This document shows, piece by piece, positions 28,314 through 64,000 of a stretch of DNA of 64,000 nt. Below the pieces are notes generated by a model that did no database searches, was not told the DNA's origin, and saw only the letters and a list, made by a program, of their open reading frames with translations. How positions within the stretch are numbered: position 1 is the first letter of the stretch; each line of letters opens with the position of its first letter. The translations under genes were made by a program, and so were the position numbers. Source of the DNA: Aquiflexum balticum DSM 16537 (GTDB lineage Bacteria > Bacteroidota > Bacteroidia > Cytophagales > Cyclobacteriaceae); contig NZ_LT838813.1 of assembly GCF_900176595.1 (NCBI RefSeq), positions 5,784,001-5,848,000 on the forward strand, in the 5' to 3' direction.

Positions 28314-29734
28314 TACTGTCATCCGACAAAAACACTGCGTGTTTTTGATAATCTTGAAAAAGTACAATGGCGAGGTTTTGACACCTCGCCAAAGTTTACG
28401 ATGTTTGAAGTTACCACACCAAAAACATCATGGCCAAAAATACAAATCTTGCGGGTCAACCGGTAATTTGTCAGCTACTTTCTTTTCTTCCCCGTCAAAT
28501 TGTTGACTTCTGTGTGTCTGAGCACCTGAGTGACAGGTATTATAAGACCATGACCACATGGAAGCAACTTGTCTTTATGCTCTATGGTGTCGTCACCAAA
28601 TGTCATTCACTTAACAGTCTTTGTAAAAACCTTCTATTCCTCGAAGACCGGCTAACATATCTTGGTATAGATAAACTTCCTGCGGTCAGTACGCTCAGTG
28701 ATGCCAATATCAACCGGAACAGTACAGTGTTTGAATCGATTTATCAGCAACTTCTGGAACATTATAAAGAAGAGTTGAGCCCCGTTGAATGTAGCTTTCT
28801 GGCCGGGCAAGTGGATACAGGAAAAGTTATAATCGTTGGTTCTTCAACAATTTCGCTGTTCGTGGATGTATTCAAAGGTGCCGGACGCAATCCGATGACA
28901 GGCAAAAAGAAAGGAGGGCTTAAAATACATGCCAAAATGCCGTTGGGCGGTTTCGTGCCCGCCCTGATACATATTACAGAAGCGGCATGCAACGATAAAT
29001 CTTTTCTCGGACAGCTTGAAGCTGAAAAAGGAGCAATTTATGTCTTTGACAAAGGGTATGTCAATTATCAAAAATGGAAAGAATGGACCGAAAAAGGAGC
29101 CTATTTTGTAACCCGGCTCAATGACAATGCAGATTACCTGGTTCTGGAAGGACAGCCAAACCACATCAGTGAATATGCTGATGGAGGGGTAGTTTCCGAT
29201 CAGATAATCATGCTCAACCCAACAAAAGACCCTTTAAAGGCAAGATTGATCATTTACAAAGACCCGGTCAGCGGTAAGGTACTGGAGTTTGTATCCAATA
29301 TGTTTGACTACAGTGACAGTACAGTCATTCTGCTTTACAAATACAGATGGAACATTGAGATTCTGTTCAAACAGCTGAAACAAAACTTTGAACTGGGATA
29401 TTTTTACTCGGACAGCATGGAGGGAATCAAAACGCAGGTGTGGATAGCTCTGATAGCCAATTTGTTGTTTTCGGTAATTCACAGGCAGTGCAGAGAAGCT
29501 GAACAGTTTGTAACCATCGTAAACATGGCAGCAATAAACATGTGCTCCTACATTTCGCTGATAAAGCTTGTCAGATCAGGTAGATTATCCAGTCTGGACA
29601 GGGATCTGAAAATAGTACAATTTGAATTGTTCAGTTTAAATAAGGGGGGTCTTTTTCAAAATTCAAAAAATTCCCCTTAATTAGAGTGTCAGAAGGATTC
29701 TTTCCACGTTTTAGAATTTAGTCGGATGACAGTA
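28314..29734 (+). mobile_element. Intact IS4-family insertion sequence (1421 bp) with 9-bp target duplication
   Basis: Terminal inverted repeats tactgtcatccgac (28314-28327) and gtcggatgacagta (29721-29734) match perfectly over 14 bp. They are flanked by the direct repeat attgaaaat at 28305-28313 and 29735-29743, a 9-bp target duplication. One full-length transposase gene lies inside. Perfect ends and an exact duplication point to a recent, complete insertion into the spacer between two secreted-protein genes. Confidence 0.93.
28430..29680 (+). CDS. IS4-family transposase (416 aa)
   Basis: The protein has the DDE transposase pattern. An Asp lies in LFVDVFKGAGRN near residue 145, a second in VFDKGYVNYQKW near residue 205, and the third acidic residue is in YRWNIEILFKQLK near residue 307, which fits the Y-(2)-R-(3)-E-(6)-K signature of IS4 elements. 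An N-terminal region of about 60 residues resembles DUF4372-type leaders. It should catalyse cut-and-paste movement of the surrounding element. The frame is intact and lies between matched inverted repeats, so the enzyme may be active. A second in-frame ATG is not needed, because the start at 28430 gives a normal length. Confidence 0.92.
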   Translation: MAKNTNLAGQPVICQLLSFLPRQIVDFCVSEHLSDRYYKTMTTWKQLVFMLYGVVTKCHSLNSLCKNLLFLEDRLTYLGIDKLPAVSTLSDANINRNSTVFESIYQQLLEHYKEELSPVECSFLAGQVDTGKVIIVGSSTISLFVDVFKGAGRNPMTGKKKGGLKIHAKMPLGGFVPALIHITEAACNDKSFLGQLEAEKGAIYVFDKGYVNYQKWKEWTEKGAYFVTRLNDNADYLVLEGQPNHISEYADGGVVSDQIIMLNPTKDPLKARLIIYKDPVSGKVLEFVSNMFDYSDSTVILLYKYRWNIEILFKQLKQNFELGYFYSDSMEGIKTQVWIALIANLLFSVIHRQCREAEQFVTIVNMAAINMCSYISLIKLVRSGRLSSLDRDLKIVQFELFSLNKGGLFQNSKNSP

Positions 29735-38834: not shown

Positions 38835-41800
38835 ATGTTAAATTTGAATAAGTCCTTCATAAGGACCATTAACCTTATTTTATTTTTTTCAATAGCTCTC
38901 TCCTTTAATTTAAAAGCCCAAACTTTTCCCGCTTCTGACTTTGACCCCAATCTTCAACAAGTAATTGCCTTCCCTGGTGCAGAGGGTTTTGGCAAATATG
39001 CCACGGGAGGCAGAGGCGGTCAGGTCATCAAAGTAACCAATTTAAATGATGAGGGACCTGGTAGTCTCCGTGCTGCAGTGGAAGCCATTGGTCCAAGAAT
39101 TGTCGTCTTTGACGTATCAGGAACCATTGAACTGAAAAGCAGACTTAATGTAAGAAACCAAGATCTGACTATTGCCGGACAAACTGCTCCTGGGGATGGC
39201 ATTACCATTAAAAATTATCCCCTTAGGATCGAATCAACAAACAATGTCGTTATTCGATTCATAAGATCTAGACTGGGAGACCTTTATGTAAACCATCCGA
39301 CAAATCCTACAAATAGTGAAGATGCCTTTGAAATCGTTAGAAGTTCAATGATAATTATCGACCACTGTTCTTTTTCATGGGGTACTGATGAGGTAGCATC
39401 AATTTCTCATGGATTAGATATTACTGTTCAAAATTCTATTTTTTCTGAGGGCCTTGCAGACTATAACTCGCTTGGTTCATTAAATTATGGAGATAAACTC
39501 TCTTTATACCAAAATCTTTATGTACATAATAGGATCAGAAATCCTGCTCTTGCAAAATCCAATCAATTCTCAAATTCGCTTCACGATATAAGGAATATTG
39601 TAGTTTATAATTATAGTTTTAGGGCTATTGACGGTGGATCAAATTCTAAGGTAAATATTTACAATTCGTACTTTAAACCAGGTCCAGCAACCTTTGCCAA
39701 TACAGACGCCCAAACTATTTCTAAAAAATTTCTGAATCCCACGAGATTGGAAAATGATCCTTCAACCTATGGGAAGTTTTATTTAGAAGGAAATTACATG
39801 CCGACAATTGATTTGTCTAAGAACCAATGGTTAGGAGTTAGAATGGAGAGCGGCTCGGCAGAAACAGAATATCTTGAACAAATAAAAAACAAAGATAGTC
39901 AAGGAAGATTAGTGCCTTTCGCCATTCCTAATAATTTGTACAGTAATAGTCGAACCGCAGAGCAAGCTTATAAATTTGTTTTGGATTTTGTAGGGTCAAG
40001 CTTAAAAAGAGATGCAGTAGATACTAGAATTATTAATGAGGTAAGAAACGGGACTTACACCTTTAAAGGGTCTAATTCTGGAGATTTGGGTATCATCGAT
40101 AGTCAAAAGGATGTGGGAGGATGGCCATTACTGCAATCTTTGGCAGCACCAAAAGATACGGATGGGGACGGGATGCCGGATGCCTGGGAAGTCTCCAATG
40201 GATTGGAACCCAATAAGGTCAACGATAAGGAGCATAATTTGAGTCCATACTATACGGATATTGAAGTCTATTTGAACAGTTTGGTACAAGACCTGATTGC
40301 CCTACAAAATCCAGGGGTTCCTAAATTGGTGAAATTGGTTTTGCCGGGAAATAATGTAATCGTAAGCCCCGTAGATATCAGTTTTGCTTGGGACCCTGTT
40401 TTAAATGCGAACCTATACACACTTCAAATTTCAAAAAGCAATGATTTTAGCAGCAATGTGATCAGCGTTAACAATATAAAAAATTACAGCTTGGTCCATT
40501 CCTCTTTAGACGCCAATAGTAACTATTATTGGAGAGTGAGGGCCAGTAACTCGAGCGGAAATGGACCCTATTCCACAGTGGGTACTTTTAAGACAGGAAG
40601 TCTAAATACAGTACCTGGAAGAACAATTTTGACTTATCCTGGAAATGGTAATGAAAACATTTCCTTAACTCCAATTTTTAATTGGGCAAAGGTTCCCAAT
40701 GCCAAAACTTATCAAATACAAGTTTCAACCAATTCAAGTTTTACCACTTTGCCCATTAATCAAGGAAACATTGTTGATAACAAATTCCAATCCCCTAGGC
40801 TACAGGAAAACCAGCTTTATTATTGGAGGGTCAGGGCAAGCAATGATTCTGGAAACGGTTCTTTTTCCAGTACAGGAACATTCAGAACCTTGAGTTTGGA
40901 CAATCGGCCAGAACCTGTTATAGCTCTCCGTCCATCAAATGGAGTACGTATTATCCCTGTCCCAGTTCAATTGGATTGGTTGGAAAGTTCCAGTGCAGAA
41001 CAATATCAGGTGGAAGTCTCCACAAATCCGGAATTTTCAGATATTACACTTATAAACAGCAATGTTCAAGAAAACTTTCTTTTGATTCCCAATCTGAATC
41101 CTAACACAAATTATTATTGGAGGGTAAGGGGGATAAATCGCTCCGGCTTCGGAAGTTTTTCTATCGCACATGCCTTTATGACTACCGGTTTTTCCCAAAA
41201 ACCGGATGCAATACAAATATTAAGTCCGGCACATGATTCCAACGTTTTTTCAACCAGTATACAATTTCAATGGGCAGCCGACCCAAGGTCCAATAGTTAC
41301 CGGTTCCAGCTATCCACGTCTCCTGACTTTAGCAGCTTTGTGACAAATGTCGGAGGATTGACCGGAACATCAAGAACAATTGACAATTTGAGTAGTAATA
41401 TAGACTATTATTGGAGAGTTCAGGGGATCAATGAGTTGGGTACAGGTCCTTTTTCAAATATCCACAAGGTACGAGCCGCTACTTTCTCAGGACGTCCATC
41501 TGCCACAAATCTAATCAGCCCGGCAAATCAAACAGTAATTGGTAGCAATCAAACATTATTTACTTGGGAAAATCAGCCCAATACAGAGAGCTATAGTCTG
41601 GAAATTTCCGAAAATTCCGATTTCAGCACTAACGTAATTAGAAGAAATGGAATAAGAGGAACATCTTTTGTTGAGAACAGTCTGCAATCCGACAAAACCT
41701 ATTTTTGGAGAATACAAACTTACAATCCAGCTGGATCAGGGAAATATAGTTATATTTGGTCTATCAATACTGTAAGTAGTGATATTTACTTAAATCCACC

Positions 41801-44378
41801 TGTTCTCTTATTGCCGGTTAATTCAAGTAATTTTTCTAATTCCAATATTAACTTTTCATGGGAAAGTATAGCAGATGCCGATGCCTTTCACCTTCAGATT
41901 TCGGAAAAGACGGATTTTATCAACCTAGTATATCAAAACCAGAACATTAACAGCAACAATCTTAATTTGAGCAGTTTGTCAAGTGGCAAAGCATATTTTT
42001 GGAGGATAAGAGCGCGAAATAACAGTATTTATTCAGCTTGGTCGAAACCAAATAATTTCAGTATTGGATCTTCTGATTTACTTTTATTAAGCGGTTTATT
42101 AGGCTATTGGCCTATGGAAGAGGGAGGTGGCAATCGGATGTTGGACCAAAGCAGCAATAACCTGCATGCCACAATCCAAAATACGGGAGATGTTTCCTGG
42201 GTCAACGGAAAAGAAGGAAAAGCAATACGTTTGAATGGGCAAACTGGACGTTATGGGGTAATTAACCATCAATCCATCATGAACATTGACAAAGCCATCA
42301 CTTTAGCTGCATGGGTCAAACCTTCTGCCTTAAATAGAGCAAATATCTTTTTTAAAAACGCGGGTAATGGATTTGAGTTATGGTTGGATATTGATGGCCA
42401 AATAGAATTCAGGTTAAATAGGGGCAATAATGGTACAACTTATCGCATGAGATCCAGTTTCAATTATGGGGGTTTTTTAAACCAATGGATACATGTAGCT
42501 GCAACCTTTGATGGAATTACTAGTACCCTCTATGTCAATGGTGTTGAGGATACTTCGGCCACCTATGTCCCATTTGAAATTGGAACCACCTCGGGTGCAT
42601 TGACCCTAGGGTCTATGGGAACCATTCAACGGTGGATAGGTGACTTGGATGAGTTACGCATTTACAACCGTGTATTAAGTAAAAATGAAATTCTCTTACT
42701 TATGGGCCAAATTCCAGATACAGAACCACCCTTAACCGACCCTCCAACTAACCCTCAATCAGGGAATTTGATTGGCTATTGGAAAATGGACGAGGGCAGT
42801 GGGAATCAAATGCTGGACCATTCCGGAAATAATTTCCATTCGAATATTCAAAATACTAGCGGAGTTAGCTGGACTAATGGGATAATAGGGCAGGCCATCT
42901 CCTTAAACGGTTTTACCAACAGATTTGGTATCACGCCCCACCATCCACAATTATCTCTTCCCAATGCCATCAGCATTACTGCTTGGGTGAACCCAGCTGA
43001 ATTAGGCCGTAGTACTGTTATTAGCAAATCTGACGGAAATGGTTTTGAACTTTGGTTAGATATCAATGGGCAGATTGAATTCAGGTTAAATCGTGGAAAT
43101 AATGGATCCACTTATAGGTTACGCTCAAATTTCAATTATAGTAATAACATGGGTAATTGGATGCATGTGGCTGCCACATTTGACGGAAGCACTAGTAAAA
43201 TCTATATCAATGGACAGGAAGATATTTCCAAAACTTATTCTCCGTTTACTGTTGGTACTAATTCAGGGAATTTGTTCATTGGGTCTATGGGTACAATTCA
43301 ACGATTTACTGGAAGTATAGATGAACTAAGGTTGTATGATTTTGCACTGAATACAGCAGAAATTCAGGCCTTAATTGATAATGCTCCCCCGTCTCCCCCC
43401 CTACCCAGTAATTTGGAAGGTCATTGGAAAATGGACGAGGGAAGTGGCAATACCATGATGGACAATTCCGGTAATGGCAATCATGCCAATATTTTGAATA
43501 CTGATGGAGTATTCTGGACAACGGGAGTAATAGGACAAGCCATTACCTTAAGTGGCAACAGCAATAGGTTTGGTATTGCACCTCACCGCCCTAATTTGGA
43601 AATACCTAAAGAACTGACAATATCGGCATGGGTAAGACCTGATGAAATCGGGAGAAACACTATAATCAGCAAATCTAAAGGAAATGGTTTTGAATTATGG
43701 TTGGATATTGATGGGCAGATTGAATTCAGGTTGAACAGGGGAAACAATGGTGCTACTTATCGGCTACGGTCAAATTTCAACTATAGCAACCAAGTTGGTA
43801 ATTGGATCCATGTGGCAGCTACTTTTGATGGTACCACCAGTAAAATTTATATCGATGGCAAAGAAGATATTGCCAAGTCATATTTACCCTTTACTATTGG
43901 TACTAATTCCGGTGATTTGGTCATCGGTGCATTGGGTACAATTCAACGATTTGAAGGAAGTATAGATGATCTCAGGCTTTATAGCAGTGCACTCAATTCC
44001 AATGACATCCAACAGCTTGCCAGCAATAGTCAAATGATGAGGATGGGTAGCAATTCTCCCAAAAACAATGCAGAGATAGCCGCTATAGACTCAAAAATAC
44101 TGGCCTCTCCCGAAATCTTCGCAAAAAAATCAGATCCTCTACTTTATCCGAATCCGGTGGAATCATTGATTAAGGTAATGTCGCTGTGGGAAAAAGAAGG
44201 GGAAATAAAAGGCCAAGTATATGATATGCGAGGTGTTCTACTGATGGAACAGGTCTTGGAACTAAAAGGATTCCAAATTGAAATAGACCTCAGTCCTTTG
44301 CGATTGAAACCTGGGAATTATATGTTGATTTTACAGGATGCACAACATAGAGAGATATTCAGGTTTATAAAAAAATAA
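38835..44378 (+). CDS. T9SS-secreted pectate-lyase-like protein with six FN3 and three LamG domains (1847 aa)
   Basis: A signal peptide (residues 1-29, ending LKAQ) is followed by a PL1-like beta-helix (about 42-430) with IDHCSFSWGTDE and YVHNRIRNPA, then a DTDGDGMPDAWE calcium motif (441). Six FN3 domains follow (495-587, 593-687, 691-785, 789-883, 887-980, 988-1080), most with the YYWRVRASN-type core. Three LamG domains (1090-1290, 1312-1510, 1528-1725) and a type A T9SS signal (LYPNPVESLIKV, 1769-1847) complete it. The LamG modules encode nearly the same motifs as those at 21.4-28.2 kb but use AT-rich codons, so they are older relatives and not part of the recent cassette. A cell-surface lyase with an extended glycan-binding tail is the simplest reading. 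Confidence 0.87.
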   Translation: MLNLNKSFIRTINLILFFSIALSFNLKAQTFPASDFDPNLQQVIAFPGAEGFGKYATGGRGGQVIKVTNLNDEGPGSLRAAVEAIGPRIVVFDVSGTIELKSRLNVRNQDLTIAGQTAPGDGITIKNYPLRIESTNNVVIRFIRSRLGDLYVNHPTNPTNSEDAFEIVRSSMIIIDHCSFSWGTDEVASISHGLDITVQNSIFSEGLADYNSLGSLNYGDKLSLYQNLYVHNRIRNPALAKSNQFSNSLHDIRNIVVYNYSFRAIDGGSNSKVNIYNSYFKPGPATFANTDAQTISKKFLNPTRLENDPSTYGKFYLEGNYMPTIDLSKNQWLGVRMESGSAETEYLEQIKNKDSQGRLVPFAIPNNLYSNSRTAEQAYKFVLDFVGSSLKRDAVDTRIINEVRNGTYTFKGSNSGDLGIIDSQKDVGGWPLLQSLAAPKDTDGDGMPDAWEVSNGLEPNKVNDKEHNLSPYYTDIEVYLNSLVQDLIALQNPGVPKLVKLVLPGNNVIVSPVDISFAWDPVLNANLYTLQISKSNDFSSNVISVNNIKNYSLVHSSLDANSNYYWRVRASNSSGNGPYSTVGTFKTGSLNTVPGRTILTYPGNGNENISLTPIFNWAKVPNAKTYQIQVSTNSSFTTLPINQGNIVDNKFQSPRLQENQLYYWRVRASNDSGNGSFSSTGTFRTLSLDNRPEPVIALRPSNGVRIIPVPVQLDWLESSSAEQYQVEVSTNPEFSDITLINSNVQENFLLIPNLNPNTNYYWRVRGINRSGFGSFSIAHAFMTTGFSQKPDAIQILSPAHDSNVFSTSIQFQWAADPRSNSYRFQLSTSPDFSSFVTNVGGLTGTSRTIDNLSSNIDYYWRVQGINELGTGPFSNIHKVRAATFSGRPSATNLISPANQTVIGSNQTLFTWENQPNTESYSLEISENSDFSTNVIRRNGIRGTSFVENSLQSDKTYFWRIQTYNPAGSGKYSYIWSINTVSSDIYLNPPVLLLPVNSSNFSNSNINFSWESIADADAFHLQISEKTDFINLVYQNQNINSNNLNLSSLSSGKAYFWRIRARNNSIYSAWSKPNNFSIGSSDLLLLSGLLGYWPMEEGGGNRMLDQSSNNLHATIQNTGDVSWVNGKEGKAIRLNGQTGRYGVINHQSIMNIDKAITLAAWVKPSALNRANIFFKNAGNGFELWLDIDGQIEFRLNRGNNGTTYRMRSSFNYGGFLNQWIHVAATFDGITSTLYVNGVEDTSATYVPFEIGTTSGALTLGSMGTIQRWIGDLDELRIYNRVLSKNEILLLMGQIPDTEPPLTDPPTNPQSGNLIGYWKMDEGSGNQMLDHSGNNFHSNIQNTSGVSWTNGIIGQAISLNGFTNRFGITPHHPQLSLPNAISITAWVNPAELGRSTVISKSDGNGFELWLDINGQIEFRLNRGNNGSTYRLRSNFNYSNNMGNWMHVAATFDGSTSKIYINGQEDISKTYSPFTVGTNSGNLFIGSMGTIQRFTGSIDELRLYDFALNTAEIQALIDNAPPSPPLPSNLEGHWKMDEGSGNTMMDNSGNGNHANILNTDGVFWTTGVIGQAITLSGNSNRFGIAPHRPNLEIPKELTISAWVRPDEIGRNTIISKSKGNGFELWLDIDGQIEFRLNRGNNGATYRLRSNFNYSNQVGNWIHVAATFDGTTSKIYIDGKEDIAKSYLPFTIGTNSGDLVIGALGTIQRFEGSIDDLRLYSSALNSNDIQQLASNSQMMRMGSNSPKNNAEIAAIDSKILASPEIFAKKSDPLLYPNPVESLIKVMSLWEKEGEIKGQVYDMRGVLLMEQVLELKGFQIEIDLSPLRLKPGNYMLILQDAQHREIFRFIKK

Positions 44379-54335: not shown

Positions 54336-56759
54336 TCACAAAGCTACTTTATTTCTAGTAAACAGATTATTCATGAATGATTTTTTCGCTTTTTCCTCTT
54401 CATAATAGCCATAATTAAAGCCTTTATAGGTTAATTCCTTAGCTGGCACATCATTCAAAATGGCATAGATGTTTTTAATACCCTTTTTAATTTTAATGTC
54501 ATTTAAATCATTTATAAAAGCTTTTTCACTAAAATTATAACGCAAAACGTAAGCTATTAAGTCAACATATTTAATAACTTCAAATGATTGACTTATCAAA
54601 CCTACCGGTGGGGTATCCAATATAATCACCTCGTATACTTTTTTGAGCTCTGAAAGAAAATTAACAAATCTTTGTGAAGATAGTAAATCAGATGGATTAG
54701 GTGGTATGGCACCTGAAGTTATTATATCAAAATTGGGATACTTTGTATTTTGAATAATATCAAAAACAGAGTCTACCTGCTGACTCAAATAATTTGAAAG
54801 ACCTACCTTATTTTTCAATTCAAAATCTTTAAAAGAACTTGGCTTAAACATATCACAGCTGATCAATAGCGTTTTTTTATTGTTCAGAGAATAAATAGAA
54901 GCCAAATTGATGGCAGTAAAAGTTTTACCCTCCCCAGAAAGTGTGGAAGATACAGCCAAAGTCAATTGCCTTTCTACAGGAACAACAAAACTAATATTTG
55001 TCTTCAAAGCTCTAAAAGATTCTGCTAAGGCTGATCTTGGTTCATTAATAACAACAAGAGGAGATTGAGTTTTATTTTGAGGTATTTTTGAAATCAAAGG
55101 CATGTTCAGCATTCCCTCAAGCTCTTTGGCATCTTTAATCCTATCATCTAAAATCACAAAAATTCCAATAATAACAACTGGAATAATTAATCCTAACCCA
55201 AAAAAAAGCATATACACAAATTTTTTTCTTGAAGTTTTAGGAGTGTAACTTGGTATTGCATACTCCACTATTTTATTAGTTGAAAAATTTGAGGCCATTG
55301 ATATGGCAGCTTCAGCCCTTCGCTGCTGTAAAAATGTAAAAATAGTTTCGTTAAGATTTCTACCTCGCTCTAATTTGATTAAATCCTGTTCGGTGGAAGG
55401 CAATCTACTAAACTGGGTTTCCATTTTCCTCATCCTACTTTCCAAATCATTTACCCTAAGTTGGGTGTTATTGGATAAATTTCTTAAGACTTCAGCCAGT
55501 GAACTACTCGTGTCTTGGATTTTTCGTGTTAGTTCTCTAACCCTTGGAGATGCCTCGGTTTGGGTAAATAGCAAACTTGCACGATCATTTTGCAGGGTAA
55601 TAAGACTATTGATTAAAGAATTCAAATTCGGATCTTCAATTCCCAAAGTTGCTGGAGCGATGATTTGGTCATAATTCTCCCGGGCCAAATAACTTTTTAG
55701 GTTTTCAAAATAATCCTTGTTAAACTTTTCTTGCTGAAGCTCAGATTCCAATTCAGTTATTTGACTATAGACTGTATTACTTTCTCTATCTATATCATAA
55801 GTTCTGTTCCCACTTCTAAAAGTCTCTAAATTGGATTCGAAATAGCTCAGAGAATCTGAAACGCCTGAAATCTGACTGTCAATAAATTCAACAGTATTTC
55901 TAGCCATCCTATTTTTCTCCTCCAATTCCATGTCCAGATAAACTTCCATTAGTGCGTTTAAATAATCTGCTCCTTTTTGTGGATGAGTCGAATTAAGAGT
56001 TATTCCAAGAACAGAAGTCTCACCATCAAGTTGAAAAACCTCAATTCCATCTCCAGAATATTTTGAAACCAATGAATTTTTGGTGTTTAAACTAATCAAA
56101 ACCTCTCCTTCATTAATATTTTTAACCAATGATATTTTTAATTTCAAAAAAGGGAGTTCAAAAAATTCACCAAAAGAAAAATCTGAAGAGAATTCTTCTT
56201 CAAAGGCAAGCTCCTCACTCGGTGCGCCAACAATTGATTTCCGGTAAATTTTTTCAGGAAATCTAACTTTAAAATTTTCATTGTCTTCCCATGAAATTTG
56301 AATAAGTCCTCCTGTTAATTGGGCATGTCCCCAATCTACTTGAACATGAATTGGTGAACTTTTATAAAGTTCAGTATTTATAAAAATTCCAGGTTGAAAA
56401 TAATCAACATTAAAATCCAACCGGTCCAAAGTTTTTTCAGCGACTGGCCTAGATTTTAGGAAAACCGCCTCATTTGCTTTTCTTTGATCAATTTTACTTG
56501 AAAATGACTTTGATAAACCAGTCAAATCCAAAATTCCATTAGCTCCAAGATCCTCGTTGATATAGAATTTGCTATTTGCCTGATAAACCGGTGGAGTAGA
56601 TTGATTGACAAAAAAGGCAATTAACAATGATAATATAATGGAAGCAAAAATATATGGCCAATATTTAAAATATTTCAACAAAAATTTTATTGGATCAAAT
56701 ACTTCTATTGAATCTTCAATATTTCCTTTTCTTTCCATATTTTCTTGAATAATATTCAT
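54336..56759 (-). CDS. wzc: Wzc-type tyrosine-protein kinase/polysaccharide copolymerase (807 aa)
   Basis: A Wzz-like N-terminus has a first membrane helix at about residues 33-52, a long coiled-coil periplasmic part and a second helix near 520-540. The C-terminal BY-kinase domain contains Walker A STLSGEGKTF (Gly611, Lys612), Walker A' LLISCDMFKP (Asp636) and Walker B VIILDTPP (711-718). A short tyrosine cluster (Y778, Y783, Y785, Y786) lies near the C-terminus and probably takes up phosphate. The protein should control chain length and export with the Wza-like protein, whose gene lies 11 bp upstream on the same strand. Fusion of the Wzz and kinase parts in one chain follows the Gram-negative arrangement. 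Confidence 0.95.
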   Translation of the reverse strand: MNIIQENMERKGNIEDSIEVFDPIKFLLKYFKYWPYIFASIILSLLIAFFVNQSTPPVYQANSKFYINEDLGANGILDLTGLSKSFSSKIDQRKANEAVFLKSRPVAEKTLDRLDFNVDYFQPGIFINTELYKSSPIHVQVDWGHAQLTGGLIQISWEDNENFKVRFPEKIYRKSIVGAPSEELAFEEEFSSDFSFGEFFELPFLKLKISLVKNINEGEVLISLNTKNSLVSKYSGDGIEVFQLDGETSVLGITLNSTHPQKGADYLNALMEVYLDMELEEKNRMARNTVEFIDSQISGVSDSLSYFESNLETFRSGNRTYDIDRESNTVYSQITELESELQQEKFNKDYFENLKSYLARENYDQIIAPATLGIEDPNLNSLINSLITLQNDRASLLFTQTEASPRVRELTRKIQDTSSSLAEVLRNLSNNTQLRVNDLESRMRKMETQFSRLPSTEQDLIKLERGRNLNETIFTFLQQRRAEAAISMASNFSTNKIVEYAIPSYTPKTSRKKFVYMLFFGLGLIIPVVIIGIFVILDDRIKDAKELEGMLNMPLISKIPQNKTQSPLVVINEPRSALAESFRALKTNISFVVPVERQLTLAVSSTLSGEGKTFTAINLASIYSLNNKKTLLISCDMFKPSSFKDFELKNKVGLSNYLSQQVDSVFDIIQNTKYPNFDIITSGAIPPNPSDLLSSQRFVNFLSELKKVYEVIILDTPPVGLISQSFEVIKYVDLIAYVLRYNFSEKAFINDLNDIKIKKGIKNIYAILNDVPAKELTYKGFNYGYYEEEKAKKSFMNNLFTRNKVAL

Positions 56760-56770
56760 AGTAACTTATT

Positions 56771-57601
56771 TTAATTAGTCGTAGTATAAACCAGCAAAGC
56801 TAGGGTGGCTAGTGAGGTAAGTACTTGAAGAGTTTGCAAGAATGTAACCCCCGTACCTAATTCTCTAACTTTCATAGGTTCCACATAAATCATATCATTG
56901 GGCCTGATAAAATAGAATTCCGAAGCCATAATCTTATTGTCATTTAAATTGACCCTATAAGCTTTGGAGCCTTCCGGATATTGTCTGATTAACATAATAT
57001 TGTCCCTTTTGGCCTGAATGGTCAAATCTCCTGCATGTGCAATGGCTTCAAAAATGGTAACTCGGTTCTGTAGTATAGTATATTTCCCCGGTCTAGTAAA
57101 CTCTCCCAATGCACTATATCTTATTCCTCCCAATCTCACCCGAACAAAATACTCATTATCCCTTACAATTTTTTTCAATTCATTTTCTATGGCAATTTTG
57201 GCATCTTCAGTATTCAGTCCTACCATTTTAACCTTTCCAATAACAGGGAGTTCAACTATACCATCATCATTCAAAGTATATCCTGACAAATAAAATATAT
57301 CCCCTCCATTCATCATTCCTCCACCTCCCATCATCATCCTTCCTTGATTCCCTCCGCTATTTATATCAAACAAGGTATTCAATAGCGGGTCTGATGTAGT
57401 GATATTGATCTCAACAACATCATTATATTGCAATAAATACTCTTCTGTATTTACGGGTACCAATTCACCAATTTGGGTTATTGGATTTTTTTCAGGGATA
57501 TCCTGCATATAAATTACCCTTTTATTGGATATACAGCTACTGAAAATTCCGAGAACAGTAATTATGCTTAAGGCATAAAACAGGTTTTGTTTTTGTATCA
57601 T
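56771..57601 (-). CDS. wza: Wza-type polysaccharide export lipoprotein (276 aa)
   Basis: A signal peptide with a lipobox-like FSSC (Cys23) is followed by LLQYNDVVEINITTSDP (Poly_export domain, about 50-150), an insert rich in Gly and Met (GGNQGRMMMGGGGMMNGG), and an SLBB domain (about 160-235, with ALGEFTRPGKYTI). The C-terminus has a hydrophobic helix (LQVLTSLATLALLVYTT) in the position where Wza inserts in the outer membrane. It should form the outer-membrane channel through which the polymer leaves. It is the first gene of the wza-wzc unit, with 11 bp to wzc. The Gly/Met-rich insert is unusual and not part of the standard family. Confidence 0.93.
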   Translation of the reverse strand: MIQKQNLFYALSIITVLGIFSSCISNKRVIYMQDIPEKNPITQIGELVPVNTEEYLLQYNDVVEINITTSDPLLNTLFDINSGGNQGRMMMGGGGMMNGGDIFYLSGYTLNDDGIVELPVIGKVKMVGLNTEDAKIAIENELKKIVRDNEYFVRVRLGGIRYSALGEFTRPGKYTILQNRVTIFEAIAHAGDLTIQAKRDNIMLIRQYPEGSKAYRVNLNDNKIMASEFYFIRPNDMIYVEPMKVRELGTGVTFLQTLQVLTSLATLALLVYTTTN

Positions 57602-58757
57602 TTTAAAATTCTAATAAAAGGAGATAGATGACAAGCTTAAATGCGCTGCTAAATTATTAATTTTTCATATAAAAAAAAACGTATTTCAGATTATTTTTTT
57701 TGAACTTTAAATATTTGTTGCTTTTAAAAGCGAATTAGACCCAAAATTAACGCAATTATCCTGATAGAAGCAAGGTTTTGTGATTTGATGTTAGTGGATT
57801 ATGGGGGGAGAAAGAGGATTTAAAGGATAAAGGTTGGGGTGTCCGATGACCGATGACCGATGTTGGGACATTTCGGCAAAATGGATTATAGCTCCAAAAA
57901 CTCGGTGACCAGCTGTTCGGGATTTGCAATCCCTAAACAAATTCCTAAATCCACCTATACCCCTTTTTCTAAACTCCATGAAATTCCCCAATTCAATCTC
58001 TCATATTTTTGTAACAAAGCCATTGCCCCAATTGAGGGTAAGAAAAAAATGAATTGGAAGTCACCCACACAATTTCACGTTCAAATGCACCATACCAAAT
58101 AGGACCTGAGTTCCACATTTCGGTAAAAAAATTATTCTTCCAAAAGGAATCTATGACCGAAATTTACAGAATGGCTGCTGTCATAACCTCGGGTTTCGGC
58201 TCATAAAGTTTGATGGAAACCGAAAACTGATTGAAGCACCTTACCCCTCATATTAAGCCATCTTCAGGACTACCACAGGAAAATCTCAATTTCAAAGCCT
58301 ACCTTAATTAGTTAGGGTAGCGGGAAGGAAGACAATGGACCGGGCCGGCCTTGGCCCTGCGCGCAGATAGGATTCCATTGTCTAGATTTTTTTGTTACTT
58401 TTTGTATCATGACAAAAAGTAAGAGAATTGTTGCAAGAAAAGTGAAATCAACGTCACTCACTTAAAACCACACCAATAATAAACCTTTTCAACAAACTTA
58501 CTCTCTACATTTCGATAAAGAAGATCAGTCTTCGAAAACAAACTCTGTGACCAAAATTGCCTGAATCGCCGCTTTTCCCAAATTCTCCCCAACAACCATC
58601 GATTCTCACCTCCCCTATACTTAGGACAAACTTTGACTTGGTACTTGGTACTTAGTACTTTGTACCCAAAATCTAGCATCTCGCCTCCCCGATACTCAGG
58701 AGAATCTTTTTTACTTGGTACTTGGTACTTAGTACTTTGTACCCAAAATATCGTCTC
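57602..58757. repeat. Second composite repeat cluster and a 75-bp tandem duplication
   Basis: No gene is supported here. The region repeats elements of the array at 37.3-38.8 kb: gatgaccgatgaccgatgt at 57845, an inverted ggatttgcaatcc palindrome at 57920, a composite unit from ttccacattt at 58111 with the gaagacaat...attgtct pair, and a further, partial unit starting near 58500. A two-copy tandem repeat of 75 bp (58604-58678, 58679-58753) then contains acttggtacttggtacttag in both copies. It ends only a few bases before the stop codon of the next gene. Confidence 0.78.
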
Positions 58758-61700
58758 TCAACGCACCAACAAAGGCCTCGAAGCAGTAATCACATTGCCC
58801 ATAGAATCAGTCGCATAAAGATAAATCCTAGAGGGACTTGAAGGCAACTTGATTTCAACAAACTTGCCATCTAATATCTTATCCAAAACCGGGCTACTTC
58901 TTTCCCAATTTTGGTCATACACTACCCAAGAATACTGCAATTCTCCATCATATCCATTTGTAATAGCTGCTGAAACCCAAAAATTTTCTCCAGGATTTAA
59001 ATAATCCCAATGCCCTACTATGTTAATATCAGGAAAGGAACTAATCATCTGATTTTCTTCTAACCAAACATTTTGCAAGTAATAATATGCAGGCTTTAGC
59101 CTTCCTTTATTATCAGTAATTCCGAACCAAGTTGCAGTACCCTCAAAACGGTCCATCCAACTAAATGCGATTCCCCCTAGATTTTTACCTTTAAAGTTTT
59201 GTATATACTCTATCCACTGCCTTTCATACCACTCAGCTTTACTAAGGGATGATAGCTCAATCAATGAACTATTATTTATATAATCGCCCAATTCATAATT
59301 CCAATAACCCTTTGGACCAAATTCAGTCACCACATAAGGTTTGTCAGGATAAGCAAACTCCATTATTGAATCAAGTTGACTTATATTTTCCTCATAATAA
59401 GAATTGATACCCAATACGTCAACATGGGGTGCAAAAGCCCTATATTGGATGATAGCACCGATTAATCTTTCATTATCATGTTCTTCCGAAGAGAATACCG
59501 GTCTTTCAGGATCAATTTTTTTGATTTTAACTGCCAAATCATCTAAAAACTCAAGATAACTTCTTCTGACTGACGTGAGGTAAGGTTGTGCGTAATGCTT
59601 CTTTAGAATCCCCCATGTTTCATTTCCGATATTCCAACCTATGATGCTTTTATCATTTTTATATTTCCTTACCTTTGCCAGTACCCGTTTTTCGTAGGCT
59701 TTAAGTTTCTTCACATCTTTTTGGAAATCTGTTTTAGGGTCAAACCAAAAGCCATACATCACTTTCAAATCATGCTCTTTAGCTGAATTGAGAATATTCC
59801 TATCGTAAATACCGGGTTCATACCTTCTAATCGTATTGGCACCCATTTTTTTGATCAATGAAAAATCCTTATCCAATTGTTTCATTGACAAGGGGATAAA
59901 TCCTTCTTCCCAATCATGGCCAGGATTGTAACAGATACCTTTGATATAGAAGGGTTGACCATCTACGATAAGTTGGTGGTTTCCTGGACTTCCAATCAAT
60001 GAGTGGGGTGATGTTTTAGATGCAATCTTGGAAGTAGGATTATTAAGATAATTTCTTTCCGAATGCAAATCAAACTTGTCAAGCCAATTAGACACCCCAT
60101 TAAGGTCAAAGGTCCAATCAATGTGTTTGGATTCTTGGTCAGGACGCCATTGAGTGATCCAGTTTTTATCCAAATCACTAAAGAAGAATACGAAAGATCT
60201 AATTTCCGGAAATTTAGTTTTGATGGAATGGATGGATTCACTTACCCAGGTTCTGCCGTCCTGCCCATAGGAAATTGAACCAAACTCTGCTAACATGACA
60301 GGTAGCTTAAAACCTTTTTCCGCAATCTTAGCACTGAATGGTTGATAGATTTGTTCAAAGCTTTTTGAAGTTTGATCTTCACTTGCCAAACCATAATCCA
60401 AAGCAGTCAATCCAATCCAATCTACATACTGTGTATAACCTCCGGAAGGAAAATAAGAATCAAATCCCTCAGTGGACCATGGACTCCATACCCAAGAAAC
60501 ATTATGAGCACCCACCTTTTCAAAACGAAGATGAACATACTTCCATGCTTCCACAAACTCTTCAGGAGTATTGTTTCCTGCCCTTGACCAAGGATACATA
60601 GGGTTTTCCATTTCATGGGCAAACCTTAAAAAAACGGGCGAATGAAGGTCTCTTAATGCTACTGCCACATCGTCAATATAAGCATCAAAATATCCATTCA
60701 AAATATATTGAAAAACCTTTTGATTATTTTTAAGATCATTATTTTCAGAATAAGCTTCGAATAAATTAGACCATGGTTCCCAAGTTATCATTGGTAAGGC
60801 ACCATGGTTAATAATAGTCTCCCATTTTTCTACAGGTAGCGGTCCATCTCCCCAAGCTACGTATGTAGAAATCACAGAAAATTGATGAGCTGCTTTTTCT
60901 TCATGTCCGTTGATTAACGATATATCTGATAAATAATCAAAATGGGGATCATAAATTCCTGTGTAGAACCCACCCAATTCTTTTTCAATTGTTGTTTTAG
61001 GTCTTTGATTCAATAAGTCATCCCTGTCCAGATTAAAGGAACTGATGATGAAAACCAAACTGCTTGCCAACATGGAAAATAAGACCAAATGTAAAGCTAC
61101 CCTGCTTAATTTTAGGTAGGAAAAATTCTTTTGAGTGAAAGTAAAGGCATTTCTAAACCATTTCCACTTGGCTTTGGTATTCAAAACCCATGTAGTCTGC
61201 CCCATGGCAAATATCGTAAAGAAAATCATAGCATTGATCGATGAAAAGAGTGCCATTAACATGCTATAGGGTTGCCAATCCCAATACAAACCATAGCAAA
61301 CTGCAAAGGCTGAGATTAAGGCCAATAATAGATTTGGCAATCCTAATAAAAATTCTCCTTTGGTCGAATGCTCTTTTGGCGTGGGAATATACGGTACTTT
61401 TATGTTCAATAAGGTGTAAACAAAACCAATAATAAAAACCCACCATGTACCTACCCTCAAAAACCCTCCAACCAAATGAATGCCTTTCTCTTCGGGATGA
61501 TTGAGCCAGGATTGAGCATAAAACCTATAGGTCAGGCTGAACAGAAAAAATGGGGTAAAATAAACGAAAAAAACCATAGGGTCAACCAACCAAGGATATT
61601 CTCCTGTAAACAAAGCATAAGCTGGAATCCCAAAATCAATTAGTGTAACAAATCCAAATAAATAGTAGAGCGGAATTATGCCATAATGCAATTTTTGCCT

Positions 61701-62648
61701 CCAAGTGAATTTCCAGAAAAGCTTTGGAAAAAGATTGAACCACAAATCAAAGGTTCCCCTACTCCATTTCAATTGTTGTTTGTAGTAGGCTGAAATGCTG
61801 CTGGGAACCTGTCCTCTGGACAAAATGACCGGTTCATACACAGACTTCCAGCCTTTAGCGTGAAGCAGCATAGATGTATGCATATCTTCAGTCAGGCCAG
61901 GAGCGTGTCCTCCTATGGAATCCAGTGCGGCTCTTCTAAAGGTACAATTTGCCCCAATAGCCTGAGCGGTTCCAAATTCCCCCATAGCTTGCATATAAGG
62001 TCCATAAAAAAGATATGTCTGTTCTGCTGCTCCTTGGGCGATCAAAGATTCTTTTTGGTTGCCATAGGATTGGACTACCTGTACATAACCTATTTCAGGA
62101 TTATCGAAATGATGCAACACATGGTCTAAAAATTCCGGATAAGGTGCGTGATCTGGGTCTAAAATCACACAAATTTCTCCTGTGGCATATTTCAGGGCAT
62201 TGTTGATATTACCTGCCTTGGCGTTTTCATGGGTATCGCGGGTGACATGTACTACACCAAGATCGGCACATAGTTCTTTCACATATGCATCATTTCCTTC
62301 ATCACAGAGATAGGTGGTATGTGGGTATTTTACTGCCACCAAAGCCCTTAAGGTATTCTCCAACATGTTATAAGGCTCACCGGGAAAAAAGGTTGTGAGC
62401 ATATCCACCGTGTAAGGTTTTAAAGGTGGCTTTGGCTTTTCTGATTCATCTCGGGGTTTTGGTAATCCGTCATAATGGTACCATTCAAAAAGCACTTTTA
62501 ACAATTTAAAAGCCAATGAAACTGTAAGCAGGAAATACAGGACCCGATGTCCTATACCGACTTTCGAAATAAACGCATATAAAAATAAAGCCAAAGATAA
62601 AATCCCAAGAATCAGGATAGCCTTGCCCAGCAGGCGTTTTAGATTCAT
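58758..62648 (-). CDS. GT2 processive synthase fused to GH26-like and GH5/GH2-like domains (1296 aa)
   Basis: Two N-terminal membrane helices lead into a BcsA-like GT2 domain (about 80-400) with DPDHAP near residue 166, LTEDMHTS near 255 and QQLKWSRG near 293, that is the D, DxD, TED and Q-x-x-x-W set of processive synthases. Further membrane helices reach to about 545. A GH26-like domain (about 565-860) keeps an acid/base candidate in RFAHEMENPMYPW near 678 and a nucleophile candidate in VMLAEFGS near 787. A clan-A GH5/GH2-like barrel (about 895-1200) has WNIGNETWG near 1009 and VVTEFGPKG near 1108. An Ig-like tail follows. The predicted protein makes a beta-linked glycan and carries two potentially active glycosidase-type domains on the far side of the membrane, possibly to cut, transfer or release it. 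Confidence 0.9.
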   Translation of the reverse strand: MNLKRLLGKAILILGILSLALFLYAFISKVGIGHRVLYFLLTVSLAFKLLKVLFEWYHYDGLPKPRDESEKPKPPLKPYTVDMLTTFFPGEPYNMLENTLRALVAVKYPHTTYLCDEGNDAYVKELCADLGVVHVTRDTHENAKAGNINNALKYATGEICVILDPDHAPYPEFLDHVLHHFDNPEIGYVQVVQSYGNQKESLIAQGAAEQTYLFYGPYMQAMGEFGTAQAIGANCTFRRAALDSIGGHAPGLTEDMHTSMLLHAKGWKSVYEPVILSRGQVPSSISAYYKQQLKWSRGTFDLWFNLFPKLFWKFTWRQKLHYGIIPLYYLFGFVTLIDFGIPAYALFTGEYPWLVDPMVFFVYFTPFFLFSLTYRFYAQSWLNHPEEKGIHLVGGFLRVGTWWVFIIGFVYTLLNIKVPYIPTPKEHSTKGEFLLGLPNLLLALISAFAVCYGLYWDWQPYSMLMALFSSINAMIFFTIFAMGQTTWVLNTKAKWKWFRNAFTFTQKNFSYLKLSRVALHLVLFSMLASSLVFIISSFNLDRDDLLNQRPKTTIEKELGGFYTGIYDPHFDYLSDISLINGHEEKAAHQFSVISTYVAWGDGPLPVEKWETIINHGALPMITWEPWSNLFEAYSENNDLKNNQKVFQYILNGYFDAYIDDVAVALRDLHSPVFLRFAHEMENPMYPWSRAGNNTPEEFVEAWKYVHLRFEKVGAHNVSWVWSPWSTEGFDSYFPSGGYTQYVDWIGLTALDYGLASEDQTSKSFEQIYQPFSAKIAEKGFKLPVMLAEFGSISYGQDGRTWVSESIHSIKTKFPEIRSFVFFFSDLDKNWITQWRPDQESKHIDWTFDLNGVSNWLDKFDLHSERNYLNNPTSKIASKTSPHSLIGSPGNHQLIVDGQPFYIKGICYNPGHDWEEGFIPLSMKQLDKDFSLIKKMGANTIRRYEPGIYDRNILNSAKEHDLKVMYGFWFDPKTDFQKDVKKLKAYEKRVLAKVRKYKNDKSIIGWNIGNETWGILKKHYAQPYLTSVRRSYLEFLDDLAVKIKKIDPERPVFSSEEHDNERLIGAIIQYRAFAPHVDVLGINSYYEENISQLDSIMEFAYPDKPYVVTEFGPKGYWNYELGDYINNSSLIELSSLSKAEWYERQWIEYIQNFKGKNLGGIAFSWMDRFEGTATWFGITDNKGRLKPAYYYLQNVWLEENQMISSFPDINIVGHWDYLNPGENFWVSAAITNGYDGELQYSWVVYDQNWERSSPVLDKILDGKFVEIKLPSSPSRIYLYATDSMGNVITASRPLLVR

Positions 62649-62795: not shown

Positions 62796-64000
62796 ATGAT
62801 CAATGCCCAAAAAGGATTAATAATTACTTTGATTTTTACTTCTTTGCTTTCACTGTTTTCTTGCAAAACAGATAAAAAGGAGGTATTTCAACCAACTGTA
62901 CAAGTAAAGTATCAGGAAGGAAGGGCAATACTTTATAGGTATGGGGAGCCATATTTTATCATAGGTGCTGCGGGCACCCAATATATGGATAAGGTGGCTG
63001 CATATGGTGGAAACTCAGTCAGGACATGGAATTTGCAAGATGCTGACAGCATTTTGGATAAAGCTCATGAACTTGGATTGACAGTGACCTTGGGAATCGA
63101 AATCGGTCGCCCACTTTGGGGAAATGACTTCGCCTACTGGAAAATCTGGGAAGTGGCAAAGAAAGTAGAAGAAATAAGGCCATTTGTAGAGAAGTACAAA
63201 GATCACCCTGCCCTGTTGATGTGGGGGGTCGGCAATGAGGTGAAAGGATATGGAGGTGGAACGAGGTTAGAAGTTTACTACATAACCAATCAAGTCGCGA
63301 AGATGGTCAAGGAGGTTGATCTAAATCACCCAACCATGACTGCTCTTAATCATTCATCTAAAATTGACTTCCTTACCCCCACAATTTTATCAAATATCGA
63401 TATTCTGGGTTTCAATGCTTTTCGAGACTTAAACCGCATGTCAGGAAAGGTATATGGGGAAGACGGATGGAAAAAAGCCTATATTTTTTCCGAGTGGGGA
63501 ACTTGGGGTCATTGGCAGGCACCAGAAACCGAATGGGGTGCGCCCAAGGAATTGAAGGACGCTGAAAAAAGACATGCCATGGAGCAGAATTGGAATACCA
63601 TGCTCCAGGATTCCTCCCTTCTTTTGGGTGCTTATGCGTTTTATTGGGGATACAAACATGAGGGTACCCAAACCTGGTTTAGTTTCTTCTCTGAGGAAGG
63701 TCTTCAAACGCCGTCCCTTCAGTTTTTGAAAGAAGCATGGTCTGGAAAAACGGTGGAGAATGCTGCGCCTAATGTCAGCGACATTTCGATTGAAAACCCG
63801 AAAAGTTTTGTCAGGGACAATTTCTACCTGGAAAGCGACAAAATATATACAGCTAGCGCACTGGCAGAAGATCCCGAAGCGGACTCACTGGAATTCATCT
63901 GGGAAATCAGGGATGAAGAAAATTACTTTCTTGATAAAAATTATTCCAACCCAATCGACTCCCTGATTGTGGTTTCAAATGGACCAAAAGTCCAATTCAA
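62796..64000 (+). CDS. Glycosidase-like lipoprotein (clan A GH5/GH2 type), 3' end beyond the window
   Basis: I translated this from the ATG at 62796; the frame is open to the window edge (about 401 codons). A lipoprotein signal ends in SLFSC (Cys23). The TIM-barrel core includes GGNSVRTWN near residue 70, LLMWGVGNEVKGYGGG near residue 142 with the acid/base-type N-E, and KKAYIFSEWGTWGHWQ near residue 227 with a nucleophile-type Glu. An Ig-like region begins near residue 330. The layout is similar to the C-terminal glycosidase part of the fusion protein encoded divergently, 147 bp away, which suggests that both act on the same glycan. A Bacteroidota lipoprotein of this kind would be anchored in the outer membrane. 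Confidence 0.85.
   Translation, partial: MINAQKGLIITLIFTSLLSLFSCKTDKKEVFQPTVQVKYQEGRAILYRYGEPYFIIGAAGTQYMDKVAAYGGNSVRTWNLQDADSILDKAHELGLTVTLGIEIGRPLWGNDFAYWKIWEVAKKVEEIRPFVEKYKDHPALLMWGVGNEVKGYGGGTRLEVYYITNQVAKMVKEVDLNHPTMTALNHSSKIDFLTPTILSNIDILGFNAFRDLNRMSGKVYGEDGWKKAYIFSEWGTWGHWQAPETEWGAPKELKDAEKRHAMEQNWNTMLQDSSLLLGAYAFYWGYKHEGTQTWFSFFSEEGLQTPSLQFLKEAWSGKTVENAAPNVSDISIENPKSFVRDNFYLESDKIYTASALAEDPEADSLEFIWEIRDEENYFLDKNYSNPIDSLIVVSNGPKVQF

Follow-up and report, generated by a model that had tools for sequence, protein, structure and literature searches.

A BcsA-like GT2 synthase fused to GH26 and GH158 domains in Aquiflexum balticum and other Bacteroidota

A gene on the minus strand of Aquiflexum balticum DSM 16537 (contig NZ_LT838813.1) occupies positions 58758-62648 of a 64,000-nucleotide stretch, here called the window, and was examined together with its relatives and neighbours. 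Analysis of the open reading frames (ORFs) of the window gives one uninterrupted frame of 1296 amino acids (aa) at this site; it runs from a BcsA-like GT2 domain through GH26 and GH158 domains (GH, glycoside hydrolase) to a C-terminal beta-sandwich. A preliminary description of this DNA had placed a GT2 synthase and two glycosidases covalently in one polypeptide, and the single frame, the Pfam matches and the matches to solved structures all agree with this; the observation of three fused domains is far beyond chance.

The fused gene and its domains

The protein begins with two transmembrane helices, TM1 and TM2 (residues 8-60, 62469..62627; this and all further synthase coordinates are on the minus strand), recognized from AlphaFold helices and hydropathy, and continues into the GT2 catalytic domain (residues 61-315, 61704..62468), with Pfam GT2 models matching inside residues 94-337. 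The GT2 motifs are present—D116, D164xD166, E254-D255 and QQLKW at 291-295, the last with Lys in place of the usual Arg (QxxKW rather than QxxRW)—and helices TM3-TM6 follow (residues 316-483, 61200..61703), with YIPTPK (420-425) sitting where BcsA has its gating-loop motif. The D, DxD, ED and Q..W motifs, the GT2 fold and the membrane channel together identify a processive GT2 synthase. An extra helix, TM7 (residues 511-545, 61014..61118; AlphaFold and hydropathy), would take the chain to the periplasm.

The GH26 domain (residues 555-860, 60069..60986) is matched by Pfam PF02156 at residues 649-773 (E-value 9e-08; 32.3 bits against a gathering score of 20.2), and its nearest structure is the lichenase CtLic26A (2bvd, 1.8e-19). 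Residues E679 and E788 align with chain positions E109 and E222 of CtLic26A, which we take to be the catalytic pair of that enzyme; the domain thus combines a Pfam score above the gathering value, the GH26 fold and a catalytic Glu pair. The third domain (residues 881-1206, 59031..60008; structure matches) had been described as GH5/GH2-like, and Pfam does place the GH2 TIM-barrel model PF02836 at residues 891-1111 (5.8e-10), but the best solved relatives are BuGH158 (6pal, 1.1e-17) and GH158(Pro) (9oro, 1.3e-17). Using a single constant numbering offset of 22 for BuGH158, N1009-E1010 and E1109 align with its N136-E137 and E220, and alanine mutants of these three BuGH158 residues are inactive according to the available part of PMC7157763. 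On sequence matches and fold comparison with solved structures we therefore name the domain GH158 and drop the GH5/GH2 name; its similarity to BuGH158 includes both the N-E acid/base and the nucleophile Glu, and the earlier claim that each of the two glycosidase domains carries both catalytic glutamates holds. A beta-sandwich-like region like that of BuGH158 completes the protein (residues 1207-1296, 58761..59030); it lies outside the predicted model, and the phmmer alignment to BuGH158 extends through it to residue 1293.

An AlphaFold model of residues 7-1206, built from an alignment of 67 rows, has a mean predicted local distance difference test score (pLDDT) of 87.6 and a predicted template modelling score (pTM) of 0.78. 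Compared by VIA-align, model positions 1-512 match BcsA (9fmz) with a Z score of 33.4, positions 549-862 match CtLic26A (2bv9) with a Z score of 31.7 (root-mean-square deviation [rmsd] 2.0, 269 aligned), and positions 875-1200 match GH158(Pro) (9oro) and BuGH158 (6pal) with Z scores of 31.0 and 29.8. Two helices lie ahead of GT2 and five behind it, between GT2 and GH26, as read by eye from AlphaFold helices and hydropathy. The loop charges obey the positive-inside rule, with K+R exceeding D+E in the TM6-TM7 loop of 82/82 family members, and the 19-residue mean hydropathy of TM7 is at least 1.5 in 75 of the 82 and 1.32-1.47 in the remaining seven. Given the helix count and these charges, GT2 should be cytoplasmic and both GH domains periplasmic, the predicted placement being the one that the preliminary description had supposed.

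Distribution, partner gene and neighbouring genes

Conserved GT2 stretches, scanned against 84,980 species genomes, yielded 406 relatives, of which the best 80 loci were retained for all locus counts. These best 80 of 406 loci contain 81 three-domain proteins, all from Bacteroidota and spanning 13 named families as well as unplaced ones, so that the architecture does recur across the phylum as had been anticipated. The GT2 motif letters, the Lys of QxxKW included, are identical in 81/81 relatives. In an even sample of 395 Bacteroidota genomes the GT2 domain was matched (E≤1e-60) in 16 genomes and 17 frames, two of them stand-alone GT2s and 15 long (834-1305 aa); the long frames comprise eight three-domain proteins (one cut by a contig end), two GT2-GH158 proteins without GH26 and five with GT2 and a degenerate GH26 but no GH158.

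Among close relatives (39 genomes searched) the distribution is patchy, with intact three-domain genes in genomes G001, G018, G034 and G035, shorter forms in G036, separate GT2 and GH26 genes in G008 and a broken copy in G028, whose locus (L137, 3956-9489) is split into several ORFs with stops and looks like a decaying copy. GT2 and GH26 are adjoining genes in L010, L131 and L134; TPR, GT2 and GH26 genes adjoin in L134 (4719-7475), L131 (4299-7198) and L010, and G001 has both split and fused forms. Loci L123 and L124 have a GT2-GH158 fusion with GH26 shifted to the next gene. As for viral carriers, three distant viral contigs match at 28-31% identity in the GT2 part only, and a fold search against viral proteins gave GT2-like and GH5-like matches. 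A plasmid search returned GT2 matches below 32% identity, most of them to cellulose synthase, glycosyltransferase and NodC.

A second gene diverges from the synthase gene at 62796..64000 (plus strand) and continues beyond the window end to ~64103. It encodes a 435-aa protein with a signal sequence, an FSC lipobox-like cysteine and glutamates E148 and E233, and it is itself a GH158 (5e-60 to 9oro), in keeping with the earlier remark that this neighbour resembles the C-terminal glycosidase. A separate GH158 is found in 74/80 loci and directly adjoins the synthase in 68, on the same strand with a gap of ≤60 nt in 47 (35 of these overlapping) and on the opposite strand with a gap of ≤400 nt in 21; it was not found in six loci (L055, L058, L062, L065, L112 and L074, the last a 3.5-kb contig). 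Both glutamates are retained in 91/91 rows that cover both sites, a number that includes two repeat fetches (L122 of L067, and L135 of L049); four more rows are partial. Across the relatives neither fused domain is as constant as the separate GH158, which, judged by its sequences, forms the system's constant working part.

When 37 fused and 39 separate GH158s, 76 chosen rows in all, were placed in a tree, one branch with support of 100 divided the two sets, and we therefore consider the split old and reject the idea that the fused GH158 is a recent copy of its neighbour. A crude scan finds a cysteine at the end of a signal-like stretch in 69/89 separate GH158s. The acidic tail taken as a surface-export signal is present in only 3/69 of these Cys-bearing proteins, so the majority probably stay in the periplasm or face inward, and the proposal that the neighbour extends the system to the outer membrane finds no support here.

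Catalytic state was counted in 82 three-domain proteins, the window's own included. Both Glu pairs are intact in 23/82; GH26 is kept and the GH158 acid/base Glu is gone in 47 (replaced by T in 14, N in 14, D in 8, P in 5, A in 2, L in 2, K in 1 and S in 1); GH158 is kept and a GH26 catalytic Glu is gone in 11; and in one, L074, the contig ends before the GH158 nucleophile. In the eight Asp cases GH158 activity is probably lost, although Asp could retain slight activity. Two intact fused glycosidases, proposed from the window protein and correct for it, are thus a minority state and no general rule, and with both intact in only 23/82 the fused pair is not a constant working part. No protein among the 82 has lost both pairs, although this is not statistically strong because few changes underlie the pattern: parsimony over 88 rows of more than 1100 aa requires three for GH26 and two for GH158.

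The dead GH158 of the Chitinophaga pinensis protein still folds in its model (pLDDT 85.8, pTM 0.73; Z 22.3 to 9p26, rmsd 3.6, 291 aligned). Dead GH158 has ratios of nonsynonymous to synonymous substitution rates (dN/dS) of 0.087-0.173 in seven close pairs. For comparison, intact GH158 gives 0.063-0.128 in four pairs from the window's clade, with a fifth pair at 0.044 where dS is near-saturated, and GT2 gives 0.030-0.112 in the 12 pairs whose dS is unsaturated. The GH26 domain of the dead-GH26 pair L056/L111 looks relaxed, at 45% identity against 83% in GT2. Depending on lineage, then, a dead domain either persists as a folded part without catalysis or is decaying.

Two further genes join the synthase in some lineages. 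A double-GH26 gene is present in 10/80 loci, and in L123 and L124 it directly follows a synthase without its own GH26; in 12/12 examples examined, including these two, the first copy has neither the nucleophile Glu nor the histidine of the HE pair, whereas the second retains them all. With this gene as query, four genomes of the 395-genome sample match below 1e-100, all synthase-bearing; one is the query's own genome (G296) and another, G249, belongs to its genus. A genome without the synthase, G167, gives a weaker match, to a single GH26 (3.8e-41). The second gene, in 7/80 loci, encodes an LtaS/MdoB-like membrane protein of 810-840 aa with a sulfatase-fold catalytic domain. Five loci (L056, L057, L060, L111 and L112) have it directly downstream of the synthase; in L113 it is upstream, and in L099 it lies close by on the opposite strand. 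An eighth locus, L049, was removed from this gene cluster, its protein being a soluble 651-aa sulfatase. The proteins have five or more hydrophobic segments and a HAPAT Thr at the nucleophile position in 6/6 examined, the L060 gene, which is present as two ORFs, being left out of this count. In L056 this Thr aligns with the Thr of LtaS chain 2w8d that we take to be the LtaS nucleophile, which favours a phosphoglycerol- or phosphoethanolamine-type transferase; in family scans of the L056 protein (LtaS 1.5e-22, phosphoglycerol transferase 1e-12, arylsulfatase 4.9e-24) arylsulfatase models score equal to or above transferase models.

At E≤1e-60 the LtaS/MdoB-like gene is found in 3/395 genomes, all synthase-bearing and at sites apart from the synthase (the next best match is 1e-26), and a double-GH26 gene is also present at two of these three sites. 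The odds of such co-occurrence are 5.5e-05 for 3/3, a figure that ignores kinship and concerns a hypothesis drawn from neighbourhoods in other genomes. The LtaS/MdoB-like gene adjoins or lies close to a double-GH26 gene, away from the synthase of the same genomes, in L141 (6423-11417) and L143 (4187-8448).

On the other side of the synthase in the window are a Wza-like (56771-57601) and a Wzc-like (54336-56759) export gene, both on the minus strand and named by eye; no ORF of 100 aa is listed in the 1.16 kb (57602-58757) that separate the Wza-like gene from the synthase. Homologues of both Wza and Wzc occur within the fetched flanks of 10/81 loci, the window's included, and a gene-cluster comparison of 81 loci found no dedicated outer-membrane exporter conserved beside the synthase. 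An ORF at 55303-55674 overlaps the Wzc-like gene on the opposite strand, probably by chance. Further off, very large secreted-looking proteins at 15630-23294, 24681-28235 and 38835-44378 have near-identical repeats in common (GHWKMDEGSGN...), and two 416-aa ORFs that begin with identical residues, named transposase-like by eye, lie ~60 kb apart in this genome by its coordinates, at 28430-29680 of the window and 9593-10843 of L034. The window's genome also has, past its separate GH158, a large condensation-domain-like ORF (L033, 13894-17910), whose gene cluster spans 11/81 loci, possibly through generic domains.

Coupled synthesis and processing, and the alternatives

The best reading of these data, to which we assign a probability of roughly 60%, is that a beta-(1,3)-containing glucan is synthesized and, coupled to this, processed in the periplasm. 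The GT2 domain would work on the cytoplasmic face, extending a beta-glucan, either beta-(1,3) or mixed (1,3;1,4), from UDP-glucose, and the growing chain would be pushed through the synthase's own membrane channel; with GH26 and GH158 set on the periplasmic side by TM7, one or both, as retaining glycosidases or transglycosylases, would set the length of the emerging chain or rearrange it. The separate, secreted and often lipid-anchored GH158 would act as an invariant partner that finishes or clears the product, and in many lineages a catalytically dead fused domain whose fold is kept probably binds or guides the chain. Where the double GH26 and the LtaS/MdoB-like transferase join, their presence suggests a decorated glucan that would stay in the periplasm; the transferase of these lineages is also the one circumstantial tie to osmoregulated periplasmic glucan systems. 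We infer the polymer and its linkage, the path of the chain to the GH sites, the roles of the enzymes, the decoration and the location of the product. The lichenase and laminarinase families to which the GH domains appear to belong hint at a beta-(1,3)-type glucan, and a further hint of the substrate comes from 9p2f, a structure of GH158(Pro) after soaking with a mixed-linkage oligosaccharide.

Several observations weigh against this reading. Sequence similarity for GH26 and GH158 is ~25%, so their specificity could differ, and the curated GT2 family with the highest score is cellulose synthase (at 152 bits, far below the cut-off of 699). None of the features looked at fixes the linkage; a GT2 residue discriminating linkage was sought in a mixed-linkage synthase paper (PMC6821405), and the part of it at hand yielded none usable. 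No intact fused GH is present in 7/98 relatives of at least 700 aa, all shorter forms. The window's genome has no match to the transferase (E≤1e-60) or to the double GH26 (<1e-100), and among the 16 synthase genomes sampled these are absent from 13 and 12, respectively. The Wza and Wzc neighbours suggest an exported polysaccharide rather than a periplasmic one.

One alternative takes the protein for a GH26/GH158 counterpart of the Pseudomonas GT2-GH17 cyclic glucan synthases, with fused transglycosylases that cyclise or branch the chain. This is possible but tentative: the layout idea is shared (a cytoplasmic GT2, a periplasmic glucan-active retaining GH and a beta-(1,3) family), an LtaS/MdoB-like gene is found in 7/80 loci and MdoB-like decoration is also proposed for the Pseudomonas system in the accessible portion of PMC10237404, but the GH families, their order and their copy number differ from the Pseudomonas proteins, none of the sequence features looked at separates transfer from hydrolysis, and the transferase is absent from the window genome. 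We think it unlikely that the polymer is exported and that the fused and separate GHs only degrade stray periplasmic chains, as proposed for AlgL in alginate synthesis in the part seen of PMC8829089. That precedent, the always intact separate GH158 and the Wza/Wzc neighbours in 10/81 loci speak for such clearance or quality control; on the other side, fusion to the synthase and overlapping genes imply close coupling, a conserved dedicated exporter was not found beside the synthase in 81 loci, and dead yet folded GH domains under purifying selection fit poorly with a pure degrader.

Less probable still is a cellulose-type beta-(1,4) synthase with its editing hydrolase in one chain, on the pattern of BcsA and BcsZ. 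BcsA is the closest relative in solved fold and in sequence, but the protein scores far under the BcsA equivalog cut-offs (TIGR03030, 152.3 bits against 699.1; PRK11498, 116.6 against 992), a Pfam scan at E≤0.1 found no PilZ domain in it, all 81 relatives have Lys in the QxxRW motif, and the hydrolases are of lichenase and laminarinase type, not cellulases; a plain cellulose synthase was rejected on the cut-offs and the missing PilZ match. An assembly or gene-calling artefact, including the sequencing frameshift that the preliminary description had allowed for, could be imagined from the split forms in other genomes and is refuted by 81 long frames in 80 loci and by frames of 834-1305 aa for 15/17 matches in the even sample.

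Coupled synthesis and processing can be extended to a wider and more doubtful proposal, that of a Bacteroidota-wide periplasmic beta-glucan system belonging to no described family, in which the fused GH26 and GH158 would be transglycosylases or cyclases, one of them repeatedly dead and chain-guiding, the free GH158 would be obligate, and some lineages would add a dead/active double GH26 and a glucan-decorating transferase of phosphoglycerol or phosphoethanolamine type. If coupled synthesis and processing is true, these genes constitute a natural single-gene test of glycosidase roles in polysaccharide synthesis: lineages with the same synthase may have both GH domains live, one of them live and the other dead (either way round), or the GHs encoded by separate genes, and because of these differences domain swaps or mutations could show the share of each domain. 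It would point to a beta-glucan made by many members of a phylum more familiar as a consumer of these polymers; the fusion could also be a new tool for making defined beta-glucans.

Comparison with known systems

A literature search found no description of a GT2-GH26-GH158 protein; its scope was without subscription papers and preprints, so a prior description is possible. With BcsA and its separate BcsZ the system has in common the GT2 fold (VIA-align Z 33.4), the motif set and a hydrolase that would work with the synthase; unlike them, it has fused hydrolases of other families, no PilZ match, QxxKW and a score under the equivalog cut-off. The GH domains resemble CtLic26A and BuGH158 in fold and catalytic Glu pairs and, for GH158, in the Asn before the acid/base (available text of PMC7157763), whereas the lichenase CtLic26A and the endo-laminarinase BuGH158 are free catabolic enzymes and the domains here are part of a synthase. 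BgsA and RiGT2 are likewise processive GT2 synthases, with beta-(1,3;1,4)-glucan as product, but the portions consulted of PMC5567048, PMC10374906 and PMC6821405 mention no fused glycosidase and give them C-termini that bind cyclic di-GMP instead.

The nearest described precedent appears to be the Pseudomonas 'Orphan'/NdvB GT2-GH17 proteins (Glt1, Glt3 and Glt7), proposed as cyclic beta-(1,3)-glucan synthases in the sections available of PMC10237404 and PMC11005184. The window protein would be similar to them in working and not a member of their group, because no GH17 domain was found in it (Pfam scan, E≤0.1), the order is reversed and two other GH families are present. Orphan/NdvB proteins, as far as those sections describe them, have one N-terminal GH17, whereas the window protein has GH26 and GH158 at the C-terminal side, behind an extra helix; the separate GH158 partner, the clade-wise catalytic loss and the occurrence in Bacteroidota also set it apart. 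Within the same limits, both have a BcsA-type cytoplasmic GT2 without PilZ, membrane helices and a predicted periplasmic, glucan-active glycosidase of clan GH-A type.

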